The position numbers and the translations under genes were made by a program. This document shows positions 510 to 63,298 of a DNA stretch of 64,000 nucleotides, one piece after another. The notes under the pieces were generated by a model. That model did no database searches and had not been told where the DNA came from. It saw only the letters and a list, made by a program, of their open reading frames with translations. The stretch comes from Oscillospiraceae bacterium (GTDB lineage Bacteria; Bacillota; Clostridia; Oscillospirales; Oscillospiraceae). Positions within the stretch are counted from its first letter, which is position 1. Every line of letters begins with the position of its first letter. The stretch covers positions 1 to 64,000 of the forward strand of contig SVLO01000009.1 in the NCBI GenBank assembly GCA_015067885.1, read 5' to 3'.

Positions 510-992
510 ATGAATGAGCTTCCAAAACGCAAAGCCATTCGCATTGAAGATTACGATTATTCCACCCCGGGGGCATATTTCATTACGGTCTGCACCGCAA
601 ACAGAGAGAAAATCTTCTGGTCTGATCGTAGGGGCGAACTGTGTTCGCCCGCCAATCCACCGTTGTCGGATATTGGAATTATTGTGGATAATGAAATCAA
701 AAAACTGAATACCGTGTATGATGCTGTTCGGGTTGATAAGTATTGTATCATGCCGGATCATATTCATTTCATCATTTCAATTAACACCGACGAGAACGGG
801 CGCACACAGTGCGCCCCTACGATATCACGGGTGATAAAGCAATTCAAAGGGTCGATTACAAAACAGGTTGGCAGACCCATTTGGCAGAAATCCTTTTATG
901 ACCACGGGATACGGAATCAGCAGGATTACGATGAGATTTGGCAGTATATAGAGAACAATCCTCTAAAATATGCATTGAAAAAGGCACCGTGA
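510..992 (+). CDS. REP-associated tyrosine transposase (RAYT, Y1_Tnp / IS200-like)
   Basis: A 160-residue single-domain HUH nuclease of the Y1 transposase superfamily. Visible family marks are YFITVCT near the N-terminus, the metal-binding HUH motif in MPDHIHFIIS (~81-90), and the C-terminal block WQKSFYDH followed by YIENNP; Tyr130 is a candidate nucleophile. Known RAYTs are domesticated transposases that cut and move REP hairpins preceded by GTAG. GTAG-headed hairpins lie in and around this gene, and two of them are inside the reading frame, encoding roughly residues 40-47 and 96-104. The family usually has a loop at such places, so the insertions may be tolerated, but activity is unproven. 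The start has GAGG seven bases upstream. The stop codon overlaps the terminator hairpin. Confidence 0.85.
   Translation: MNELPKRKAIRIEDYDYSTPGAYFITVCTANREKIFWSDRRGELCSPANPPLSDIGIIVDNEIKKLNTVYDAVRVDKYCIMPDHIHFIISINTDENGRTQCAPTISRVIKQFKGSITKQVGRPIWQKSFYDHGIRNQQDYDEIWQYIENNPLKYALKKAP
628..650 (+). repeat. GTAG-headed REP-like hairpin inside the RAYT gene
   Basis: GTAG followed by the palindrome GGGCGAAC-TGT-GTTCGCCC. It is read in frame as part of the RAYT protein. Confidence 0.75.
798..820 (-). repeat. GTAG-headed REP-like hairpin inside the RAYT gene, reverse orientation
   Basis: On the minus strand it reads GTAG then GGGCGCAC-TGT-GTGCGCCC. It keeps the same head and stem length as the copy at 628 but has a compensated change in the stem, and it too is in frame. 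Confidence 0.75.
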
Positions 993-23303: not shown

Positions 23304-23354
23304 GTAGGGGCGCGCTGCGCGCGCCCGCGGGCGGCCATACGGGGCCGCCCCTAC
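23304..23354. repeat. Pair of GTAG-headed REP-like hairpins in inverted orientation
   Basis: Starts GTAGGGGCG and ends CGCCCCTAC. The first hairpin is GGGCGCGC-TGC-GCGCGCCC and the second GGGCGGCC-ATACGG-GGCCGCCC. It lies in a 583-base gap (23126-23708) with no supported gene. Confidence 0.75.
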
Positions 23355-23455
23355 GACAGACCTGCAAGTTTTCGCAATAGTCGGCGGGACTTCGATAGAC
23401 AGATAGATTTACAGAGGGTACGCAGGGCGGCAGCTCAATCGGAGCAGGCAAAGCC

Positions 23456-23509
23456 GGATATGACCGCCGACCATGTGGGTGCGATCCCACGGAGGTCGCC
23501 CAAAGGAAG
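23456..23509 (+). repeat. 54-nt structured intergenic repeat, copy A
   Basis: Contains CCGCCGACCATGTGGGTGCG and then ATCCCACGGAGGTCGCCC. It can fold as CCGCC/GGAGG outer stem, GAC-containing bulge, GTGGG/CCCAC inner stem and a GCGA loop. Copy B at 25943 matches at 43 of 54 positions. The next 100 bases hold three more hairpins (CATAGAAACC/GGTTTCTATG, CCGCCGC/GCGGCGG, CGCCCC/GGGGCG). Confidence 0.7.
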
Positions 23510-23511
23510 TA

Positions 23512-23534
23512 CATAGAAACCATGGGTTTCTATG
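23512..23534. repeat. Inverted repeat in the 23.1-23.7 kb gap
   Basis: CATAGAAACC-ATG-GGTTTCTATG, perfect ten-base arms. Begins two bases after copy A of the 54-nt repeat. Confidence 0.6.
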
Positions 23535-23601
23535 CTGATTTCTGGCTTCTTATGTTCAGCGACAAAAGAAACCCGCCGCCGGAGCGGCGGAACAGCCCCA
23601 T

Positions 23602-23627
23602 CCCGCCCCGCAGGGGCGAAATTTTGG
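23602..23627 (+). repeat. CGCCCCGCAGGG-GAAATTT repeat, copy 1
   Basis: CCCGCCCCGCAGGGGCGAAATTTT. The same block recurs twice, in opposite directions, near 63.25 kb. Confidence 0.65.
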
Positions 23628-23644
23628 AAAATTTTGCGGAAAAA

Positions 23645-23673
23645 TTGCAGTTGTGCGCGGAGTCTGTTATAAT
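23645..23673 (+). promoter_or_regulatory. Promoter of the MATE gene
   Basis: TTGCAG, 17 bases, TATAAT. The -10 lies about 36 bases before the ATG. Confidence 0.85.
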
Positions 23674-23708
23674 ATCCCGCAGATGATTTCGAAAAGGATG
23701 GGCGGAGG

Positions 23709-25094
23709 ATGGCGAAGGTAAAAATCGGGGTCCGGGACGTGCTGGGCGACCGGGGCTTGTATAAACAGATGGCCCGCATCGCCATACCTGTGTCCCTGCA
23801 GGGCCTCGTCACTGTCAGCATCAACCTGATGGACACCATCATGCTCAGCGGCATGGGGGACGCCCAGCTGTCCGCCTCATCCCTGGCGGGCCAGTTTATC
23901 AACCTGTTTATGATCTGCTGCATGGGTATCGGTATGGGCGCTTCCGTGCTGACCAGCCGCTACTGGGGCATGAGGGATTTGCTCAGTCTGAAAAAGACGG
24001 TCACCATCATGCTGCGGCTGGCGACGGTTTTTGCCGCGGTGTTCACCCTTGCCACCATCGTGGCGCCGGGCCTGATCATGCGCCTGTACACCGACGAGGA
24101 GAATTTGATCTACTATGGAATCCTGTACCTGAAGTGGATGGTTCCCACCTACATCTGCACCGGCTTGAGCCTGACCTGTACCATCGTGCTTCGCACAGTG
24201 GGGCAGGTGCGGGTACCCATGGCGACGAGTATTGCGGCGTTTTTTGTTAACGTGTTCTCTAACTGGGTGTTTATTTTCGGCAAGCTGGGGGCGCCCCGGA
24301 TGGAAATCGAGGGCGCGGCGCTGGGTACGCTGATCGCCCGCGTGTTTGAATTGGCCTGCATCTGCGGCTGGTTCTTTTTCAAGGACGACCGCATCGGCTA
24401 CCGGGTGAAGGATCTGATAATGAAGTGCCGGGACCTGCTGCGGGAGTATATCCGAATCAGCATCCCGGTTCTGGTCAGCGACAGCTTGCTGGCCCTGGGC
24501 AACAACGCCGTGGCCATGGTCATGGGACATATTGGCGAGGCCTTTGTGGCGGCCAACTCCGTGACCGTGGTGGTGCAGCAGCTCAGCAGCGTGCTGACCC
24601 AGGGCATCTCTAACGCCAGCGGCATCATCACCGGCCACACCATGGGCCGGGGAGAGGGAGACAAGGCCCAGCGACAGGGCTACGCCTTCCTGTTTATGAG
24701 CTTTGTCATCGGTTGTGTGGCGGCGCTGGTGATTTTGGTTCTGCGTGGGCCGATCATTAACTTCTATGAGGTGTCCGAGGAGGCCAAAAGCATCGCCTGG
24801 GAGCTGATGGACGCCATTTTGATCATCGTTATTTTCCAGTCCATGAGTTCGATTTTGACCAAGGGCGTGCTGCGGGCCGGCGGGGACACCAAGTTTCTGA
24901 TGGCCGGGGACATCCTGTTTTTGTGGGTGGCGTCCATTCCCCTGGGGTATTTGGCCGGATTGGTATTTGAATGGCCGCCCTTTTGGACCTACACCTTTTT
25001 GAAGATCGATCAGGTCATCAAATGCGTGTGGTGTTTCTTCCGCCTGCGCAGCGGCAAGTGGATGAAGAAAATTTATTCCGCTCAAGGAGGCTGA
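23709..25094 (+). CDS. MATE-family efflux transporter
   Basis: 461 residues with about 12 membrane helices in two repeats. MATE proteins export drugs or metabolites against sodium or protons. Visible blocks: KQMARIAIPVSLQGLVTVSI at the first helix, NLMDTIMLSGMGDAQLSASSLA, and the repeat-2 counterpart IRISIPVLVSDSLLALGNNA. The start ATG lies in GGCGGAGGATGG; the ribosome site is AAAAGG or GGCGG, so the start is only fairly sure. One base separates its stop from the next gene. Confidence 0.92.
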   Translation: MAKVKIGVRDVLGDRGLYKQMARIAIPVSLQGLVTVSINLMDTIMLSGMGDAQLSASSLAGQFINLFMICCMGIGMGASVLTSRYWGMRDLLSLKKTVTIMLRLATVFAAVFTLATIVAPGLIMRLYTDEENLIYYGILYLKWMVPTYICTGLSLTCTIVLRTVGQVRVPMATSIAAFFVNVFSNWVFIFGKLGAPRMEIEGAALGTLIARVFELACICGWFFFKDDRIGYRVKDLIMKCRDLLREYIRISIPVLVSDSLLALGNNAVAMVMGHIGEAFVAANSVTVVVQQLSSVLTQGISNASGIITGHTMGRGEGDKAQRQGYAFLFMSFVIGCVAALVILVLRGPIINFYEVSEEAKSIAWELMDAILIIVIFQSMSSILTKGVLRAGGDTKFLMAGDILFLWVASIPLGYLAGLVFEWPPFWTYTFLKIDQVIKCVWCFFRLRSGKWMKKIYSAQGG

Positions 25095-25095
25095 C

Positions 25096-25824
25096 ATGGG
25101 AACCTTAATTAACTGTGGATTGATTTTACTGGGCGGCATTGTTGGTCTGCTGTTCAAAAAGGCGGTCAGCCCGGAGATGGAGCGCTCCGTCCAAAAGGCG
25201 GTGGGCGTGGCCGTGGTGATGGTGGGTCTGTGCGGCGCCCTGAGCGTTATGCTGAGTATGGAGGACGGCAAGCTGAAAAGCTCCGGCGAGCTGCTGCTGG
25301 TGGTCAGTCTTGCCCTGGGTACCTTCGTCGGCGAGGCGCTGAAGCTGGACCGGCGCATTGACAGCGGCTGCAAGGCCATAGAGCGCAAGTTCAAGGCCAG
25401 CAATTTTTCCGCCGGCTTTATCACCGCAAGTCTGATCTACTGCATTGGGGCCATGGCCATCGTGGGATCCATCCAGGACGGCCTGCTGGGGGACAGCAGC
25501 ACCCTGATCACCAAGGGCATCATCGACGGTATCACCTCGGTGGTGCTGGCGGCGACACTGGGCTACGGCGTGCTGTTCTCCGTTATCCCGGTGCTGATAT
25601 ACCAGGGGGCCATGACCCTGCTGGCCGGGACCCTGGACGGCGTGCTGCAGGGGCAGCTGCTGGACAATATCTGTATGGTGGGCTACGTGCTGGTGCTGTG
25701 TATCGGCATCAACTTCCTGTCCAATAAGGACAATCAGATCAAGACGGTGAATATGCTGCCGGCGGTCTTGGTGCCGGTGGGGTATGAGGTGATACACAGA
25801 CTGTCGCTTTGGATGCTGAACTGA
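25096..25824 (+). CDS. DUF554 family membrane protein
   Basis: 242 residues. Seven or so hydrophobic segments; the N-terminus GTLINCGLILLGGIVGLLFK and the blocks ALGTFVGEALKLDRRID and YCIGAMAIVGSIQDGL are those of DUF554 (YdfK/YqgA-type) proteins, which are possible transporters of unknown substrate. AAGGAGG lies in the end of the MATE gene, so translation is coupled. A terminator follows. Confidence 0.9.
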   Translation: MGTLINCGLILLGGIVGLLFKKAVSPEMERSVQKAVGVAVVMVGLCGALSVMLSMEDGKLKSSGELLLVVSLALGTFVGEALKLDRRIDSGCKAIERKFKASNFSAGFITASLIYCIGAMAIVGSIQDGLLGDSSTLITKGIIDGITSVVLAATLGYGVLFSVIPVLIYQGAMTLLAGTLDGVLQGQLLDNICMVGYVLVLCIGINFLSNKDNQIKTVNMLPAVLVPVGYEVIHRLSLWMLN

Positions 25825-25830
25825 ACGACA

Positions 25831-25862
25831 ACGGGCGCACCGCCGGGGTGCGCCCGTTTCGT
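25831..25862 (+). terminator. Terminator of MATE-DUF554 operon
   Basis: ACGGGCGCACC-GCCGG-GGTGCGCCCGT followed by TTCGTTT. Confidence 0.8.
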
Positions 25863-25890
25863 TTGCGGGGGGCGAGGAATGAGGAATGTC

Positions 25891-25921
25891 GTAGGGGCCG
25901 GCGTCCTCGACGGCCCGCAAC
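25891..25921 (+). repeat. GTAG-headed REP-like hairpin
   Basis: GTAG then GGGCCGGCGTC-CTC-GACGGCCC. Same head as the copies near the RAYT gene, with a longer imperfect stem. Confidence 0.65.
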
Positions 25922-25942
25922 TTAATAGAAGTTTGCAGGGTC

Positions 25943-25996
25943 AGATATGTCCGCCGACTGCGTGGGGGTGACCCCACGGCGGTCACCCAAAGAAAG
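25943..25996 (+). repeat. 54-nt structured intergenic repeat, copy B
   Basis: CCGCCGACTGCGTGGGGGTG then ACCCCACGGCGGTCACCC. Compared with copy A, the outer stem gains a G-C pair, the inner stem gains a G-C pair, and the loop GCGA becomes GTGA, so the fold is kept. Confidence 0.7.
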
Positions 25997-26026
25997 CGAG
26001 CATCCCCCACGGGATGCTCGCTTTTT
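25993..26026. terminator. Bidirectional terminator
   Basis: AAAGCGAGCATCCC-CCAC-GGGATGCTCGCTTTTT. It serves the lipoprotein gene on the minus strand and any transcript coming through from the left. Confidence 0.85.
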
Positions 26027-26040
26027 GCCGAAGCAGGCGC

Positions 26041-63244: not shown

Positions 63245-63298
63245 AATTTCGCCCTGCGGGGCGAGGTAGGGGATGTTCCGCCCCGCAGGGAGAAATTT
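63245..63298. repeat. Inverted pair of the CGCCCCGCAGGG-GAAATTT repeat
   Basis: Left arm AATTTCGCCCTGCGGGGCG, right arm CGCCCCGCAGGGAGAAATTT, about 15 bases between. The third copy is at 23602. Lies in the 276-base gap between galM and groL, which holds only hairpins. Confidence 0.65.

Follow-up and report, generated by a model that had tools for sequence, protein, structure and literature searches.

Relics of a probable REPIN/MITE-like element family with pseudoknotted end modules in an Oscillospiraceae genome

Repeat relics in the window

The window (the whole analysed stretch of 64,000 nucleotides from an Oscillospiraceae genome) contains two copies of a repeat, at 23456-23509 and 25943-25996, which are identical at 43 of 54 positions without gaps, as had been reported in a first-pass annotation. 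The repeat pair is real: composition-matched random sequence yielded 25-28 of 54 at best in a small simulation with few replicates. The 54-nt unit proposed in the annotation is too narrow, since the repeat is far longer, with a conserved right part of about 200-240 nt and an intact element of about 510 bp. The features of the region, including matches to two covariance models (R1 and R2) described below, are as follows.

23304..23354, no strand assigned: palindrome GTAGGGGC...GCCCCTAC, a separate REP-like repeat at the element centre; same junction in the copies L021, L024, and L028
23380..23594, plus strand: decayed copy 1 of the mobile element, of which the right half remains; homologous to family-consensus positions 1-216 (74% match over 198 nt), ends GGCGGAACA
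23425..23545, plus strand: match to model R1 (5' domain, long hairpin, and hairpin A), 122.5 bits, E 8e-29
23456..23509, plus strand: annotated 54-nt unit, copy 1; internal to the element, described fold unsupported
23512..23534, plus strand: hairpin A of the end module, CATAGAAACC ATG GGTTTCTATG; 100% paired across the 41 copies, with two-sided changes in 6 of its 10 pairs
23535..23538, plus strand: pseudoknot strand 1, CTGA (helix 2 of the covariation test)
23539..23543, plus strand: pyrimidine linker TTTCT, the expected third strand in the groove of stem B; linker and purine strand covary family-wide, the match being imperfect in decayed copy 1
23545..23572, plus strand: stem-loop B with pseudoknot strand 2 (TCAG, 23556-23559) in the loop; supported by covariation and an R2 match at 23500-23577 (83.6 bits)
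23573..23590, plus strand: terminal GC-rich hairpin C, right end; from the own-genome alignment, the element boundary being confirmed by an empty site at another copy
23604..23620, minus strand: left-terminus hairpin relic, TTTCGCCC..GGGGCG; at the orthologous locus of a relative, a full element has its left end at this place
25923..25996, plus strand: copy 2, a right-half fragment without left half or pseudoknot module; consensus positions 72-130, 88%; R1 match of 90.0 bits, E 1e-20
25943..25996, plus strand: annotated 54-nt unit, copy 2; sequence match to copy 1
25993..26027, no strand assigned: strong terminator-like hairpin directly 3' of copy 2 (z-score -5.8), unrelated in sequence to hairpin A

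Judging by their sequences, both copies are relics (decayed pieces) of a large mobile element family, because copy 1 is half lost and carries mismatches in stem B, and copy 2 retains an inner fragment only. The hairpin at 25993..26027 is probably the terminator of a host gene.

Each unit had been described as folding into a CCGCC/GGNGG outer stem and a GTGGG/CCCAC inner stem with a GNRA cap. In 13 copies this structure has 77.6% paired cells, which equals the value for shuffled alignments, and zero pairs with two-sided changes, and the two pairs regarded as improving it (G-C in columns 42/69 and 56/61) are confined to copy 2. This fold was rejected for absence of covariation, and the RNA element in the form described is not supported. 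An alternative set of helices in the own-genome copies has 95.3% paired cells, compared with 89.5% in shuffled and at most 48.5% in slid alignments, mainly owing to hairpin A just 3' of the annotated unit. The refuting outcome named in the annotation, loss of pairing in additional copies, applies to the reported stem; additional copies are nevertheless present, and pairings other than this one are preserved in them. The structural signal proper sits 3' of the reported unit, at 23512-23590, where either single-stranded DNA or RNA could be the acting form. The competing suggestion of a mobile unit is supported by the dispersed copies, the insertion/empty-site polymorphism, and the inverted paired ends described below. 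Of the GTAG hairpins noted upstream of both copies, the one at copy 1 (23304-23354) is confirmed, whereas copy 2 has only a partial one, at 25891.

Anatomy and distribution of the element family

A sequence search of the own genome (1.93 Mb in 43 contigs) identified 12 clear copies and several partial ones; at least 10 further full copies are present besides the two places in the window. Model R1 was built from 13 own-genome copies, and the end-module model R2 from copies found via R1; the distribution counts below depend on that chain, and the E-values of both short-calibrated models are rough.

Intact elements are about 350-700 bp long, and each of their two ends bears an outward-facing structured module. 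Both ends are retained in four own-genome copies detected with R2 (L021, L023, L024, and L026), of which L023 and L026 are about 510 bp long and display the terminal similarity TGTT(T/C)CGCC. Other own-genome copies, including copy 1 of the window, consist of the right half alone, with the GTAGGGGC palindrome at the broken side. Diverged copies placed side by side show the module order AAAGGA..., hairpin A, 4-nt strand, T/C-rich linker, stem-loop B, and GC-rich terminal hairpin C. The modules found with R2 form inverted pairs that face outward, with a few hundred bases between the partners. Among neighbour modules less than 800 bp apart, the arrangements '-/+', '+/-', and '+/+' were observed 20, 0, and 2 times in G012, a one-contig genome of the same genus, and 6, 0, and 1 times in G205.

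No conserved reading frame was seen in the element, which we judge to be non-coding from its size and the ORFs seen. A small ORF starting at the ATG of hairpin A was rejected, as in many copies the loop is ATT, GTA, GCA, or TT and early stops follow. The first own-genome alignment resembled a simple sRNA gene with an intrinsic terminator, but this 'terminator' is the pseudoknot module, which is present at both ends. A candidate autonomous copy of 2.9 kb in G366 proved to be two separate elements flanking host transporter genes.

Several variants of the ends were observed. In L103 and L108, hairpin C is tandemly repeated together with the next 12-13 bases (AAATATCTTATCC and AACAACTCCACC), as if this hairpin could duplicate or move alone. 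In genus g95 (L190, L192, and L194; genome G366), one end is not the usual module but a long pyrimidine/purine hairpin with GGTTCTTTCCTTTTCCCGAAAAGGAAAGAAC nested in a second stem. Finally, at positions 63247-63295 of the window, a terminal hairpin (TTTCGCCCTGCGGGGCG) and its inverse face each other with no element body present, an arrangement suggestive of solo ends or the scar of an excision.

When 84,980 species genomes were scanned with a DNA pattern, close copies appeared in two Oscillospiraceae MAGs from goat caecum, in which R1 detects 6 and 13-14 copies, respectively; a single pattern match in Herbidospora was unconfirmed by R1 and is unrelated. Diverged multi-copy relatives were detected by R1 in further species and genera, and eight genomes of five genera contain 12-115 modules each (maxima 94-115). 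At E <= 1e-4, R2 matches are present in 96 of 401 sampled genomes of the family, mostly MAGs, and in 40 of its 106 genera. At E <= 1e-6, R2 hits extend to five other families of the order and, elsewhere in the phylum, to one distant family (four genomes), where the pseudoknot is kept with other letters. Carriage by phages, plasmids, or viruses was considered and dropped, the plasmid and phage records and viral patterns tried giving zero element matches. No Rfam 15 family scores above its gathering threshold in the window or at the element loci of the own genome and other genera, and the open-access literature searched contains no description of the element. It is a large and previously unlisted mobile-element family of gut Clostridia. 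Copy numbers reach about 100 modules per genome, and carriers belong to at least 40 genera of one major family of gut bacteria. A T-box leader (Rfam RF00230, 107.5 bits; L003, 2119-2362) is located near one element copy and is unrelated to the element.

Pseudoknot and linker of the end module

Both the stems and the pseudoknot are supported by covariation. In 41 distinct modules, the structure including the pseudoknot has 96.4% paired cells, compared with 77.7% in shuffled and at most 50.6% in slid alignments. Two-sided changes are observed in 17 of 25 pairs, including all four pseudoknot pairs, these counts being inflated by kinship, as copies within a genome are related and not independent events. 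The complementarity between the 4-nt strand and the stem B loop is maintained by different letters in different copies: CTGA/TCAG, CGGC/GCCG, CGCG/CGCG, CGTG/CACG, CGAA/TTCG, and TCAA/TTGA. At least four perfect linker-loop pairs are found in 71% of 131 distinct modules versus 19% (maximum 30%) with the loops re-dealt.

The pyrimidine linker and the purine strand of stem B, in turn, vary together, T with A and C with G. In 64 distinct modules, the combinations at the first linker position are T:A (32), C:G (26), T:G (1), and C:A (0); the second position shows T:A in 35 of 35 cases and C:G in 12 of the 18 cases with G. Matched linker and stem states coexist inside single genomes (G431, G385, and G366), switching together. 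This rule is that of a parallel pyrimidine triple helix (T-A-T and C-G-C), and such a helix can form in the present topology, that of an H-type pseudoknot whose linker crosses the second stem in its deep groove. As in major-groove triplex pseudoknots, the first loop obeys Hoogsteen complementarity to the second stem's purine strand and covaries with it. From this pattern we infer a physical triple helix in the end modules, in which the covariation expected of a triple helix is recorded more clearly than in most natural examples.

The linker also bears on the possibility that the modules are bidirectional intrinsic terminators around a neutral insert. The CTTTTT found 4 nt after hairpin A and the upstream AAAGG, which could lengthen its stem, agree with such a function. 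However, the T run is often TCTTT or CTTTT and tracks the purine strand of stem B, which is not a terminator rule, and pairing with the next loop constrains the 4-nt spacer. As to the GC-rich hairpin directly followed by a T run that marks intrinsic terminators, many copies have this spacer and interrupted T runs. We regard terminators as a very improbable explanation.

The stems are 98-99% Watson-Crick, with 10 G-U and 6 A-C among 1866 cells. A wobble count for strand choice in alignment A3 gave 15 G-U versus 12 A-C, some of them from misaligned rows, and favored neither strand decisively. Functional RNAs usually tolerate many more G-U pairs. Because G-U pairs are almost absent, we lean to a constraint at the DNA level (for example, folded single-stranded ends), although recent copying or arm-to-arm correction could also result in low G-U. 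As a counter-point, RNA pseudoknots also use a major-groove linker, and an RNA role is possible.

The scarcity of G-U pairs argues in particular against transcription of the element into small RNAs, with each half being a gene whose 3' module stops transcription and/or shields the product from exonucleases, and with spread by an unrelated process. The topology would match that of known RNA major-groove triplex pseudoknots, a promoter-like sequence TAGAC(A/G)-17-TACAAT precedes the right half in several copies, and internal promoters would read into the outward-facing modules. On the other hand, several copies have only a poor match to a -10-like box (TACGCA), and the module is lost from copy 2; all in all, we consider this explanation unlikely. 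A guide-RNA-like scaffold, with the modules as ends of TnpB/IscB-like RNAs and the flank read as guide, would account for modules that lie at element ends and face out, and a pseudoknot with a triplex is known in some Cas12-type guide RNAs. Nevertheless, such a scaffold seems scarcely credible here, given zero Rfam matches to known transposon-associated RNAs, the lack of a nuclease gene in every element seen, and the occurrence of modules at both ends.

Mobility and comparison with known mobile repeats

One insertion polymorphism was found. The flanks of L023 are contiguous in the related species G050 (C18:79059-79461; 82% identity across the joined flanks), and the site is occupied by the element in G047 and G048. 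The empty site confirms the element boundary at L023, and no target-site duplication was seen at this one site. The locus of copy 1 in the window is orthologous to a G047 locus (L067) holding a full element in the opposite orientation, and the left-terminus relic at 23604-23620 is retained where G047 has the left end. The orientation is the same at five of seven orthologous sites and inverted at two. In the two inverted cases (L025/L064 and window copy 1/L067), the body is inverted relative to the flanks between species, and one terminal hairpin stays with the same flank in both. This arrangement may reflect in-place inversion, replacement, or re-insertion.

The contig of G012 (C1, loci L249-L253), a closed chromosome, starts at dnaA, and in this one genome, on which the clustering rests (the G205 contig starts elsewhere than dnaA), 30 of 40 elements are less than 100 kb from dnaA, within 6.9% of the genome (binomial 5e-27). 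One of them is located between dnaA and dnaN. Many G012 matches are individually weak, with E up to 0.05, but gain support from the 20:0 pairing of modules and from the element between dnaA and dnaN, in which both pseudoknot and linker are intact.

On balance, we slightly favor the interpretation that these are non-autonomous mobile elements of the REPIN/MITE type whose ends are recognized in folded form by a trans-acting protein, the window copies being two decayed pieces. Each end would fold once its strand becomes single, during replication or transposase processing. Hairpin A would form, followed by an H-type pseudoknot in which the 4-nt strand pairs into the loop of stem B; the pyrimidine linker would lie as a third strand in the major groove of stem B (T-A-T and C-G-C triples), and the GC-rich terminal hairpin would follow. 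A protein supplied in trans would then recognize the fold, cut, and insert the element between genes. The ends are probably recognized as folded DNA, and the fold would be read by a trans-acting enzyme; a limited search for a transposase gene or an autonomous copy of the element found none. More tentatively, we suggest a new kind of transposon end, in which the enzyme recognizes both ends as single-stranded pseudoknots that incorporate a triple helix, and for at least one species insertion would be concentrated close to the origin of replication.

An ordinary inverted-repeat MITE, with a DDE transposase reading double-stranded ends and the hairpins and pseudoknot arising as palindrome by-products, is also in line with the two inverted ends, the short terminal similarity TGTT(T/C)CGCC, the intergenic insertions, and the lack of coding capacity. 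Yet the end sequences diverge strongly between and even within elements, whereas pairing, pseudoknot, and linker rule are kept, a pattern opposite to that predicted for double-strand recognition, which makes this alternative quite improbable. If the modules are indeed transposition ends, they represent a new transposition system; if they act as RNA, a new widespread RNA class. With the record of triple-helix covariation in these ends, it becomes directly testable whether cells employ triplexes of folded single-stranded DNA (or RNA) for recognition.

The family is REPIN/MITE-like, with an end structure for which we found no earlier description. With known MITEs, the element shares short length, no conserved ORF seen, inverted ends, and insertion polymorphism; it differs in being constrained in one-strand folding rather than in terminal sequence, and no target-site duplication was seen at the one empty site. 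Single-strand transposition as in IS200/IS605 would explain recognition of folded single-stranded ends. However, the ends of IS200/IS605 elements are not inverted copies of each other, unlike those described here, and no Y1 transposase is linked to the elements. In triplex RNA pseudoknots (telomerase RNA, SAM-II and preQ1-II riboswitches, and type III antitoxin RNAs), as in our modules, an H-type fold has a U/C-rich first loop opposite a purine strand, but these are RNAs of known function, whereas the element is a dispersed, paired end structure with almost no G-U.

REPINs are doublets of hairpin-forming REP sequences moved by RAYT transposases (PMC3116915). Like them, the element is non-autonomous, intergenic, and multi-copy, its unit consists of two inverted structured repeats with a spacer ('-/+' versus '+/-' of 20:0 in G012 and 6:0 in G205), and singlets resemble decayed remnants. 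In contrast, its ends are pseudoknot/triplex modules of about 80-100 nt rather than a short GTAG-headed hairpin, and the spacer is 300-600 nt. In place of the REP core, a GTAG tetranucleotide with a short imperfect hairpin, the ends contain TGTT(T/C)CGCC, hairpin C, stem B, the pseudoknot, and hairpin A. No R2 module lies near the RAYT gene of the window (510-992), the sole RAYT examined, which is surrounded by GTAGGGGC repeats instead. REPIN-like in anatomy, the element is thus no REPIN by the features compared.

This gene (510-992, plus strand) encodes a REP-associated tyrosine transposase of 160 aa, which scores above the cut-off of PF01797 and just under that of NF047646 (75.5 bits, cut-off 80). 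The GTAGGGGC palindromes occur inside or beside it at 628, 813, 1025, and 1053. The GTAG hairpins of the first-pass annotation are probably the REPs of this transposase and look like a second mobile repeat, separate from the pseudoknot element. An identical junction, GATGGTGTAGGGGC, is found in L021, L024, L028, and at 23304-23354 of the window, which suggests a single entry of the GTAG repeat into the element, followed by joint spread of the resulting composite.
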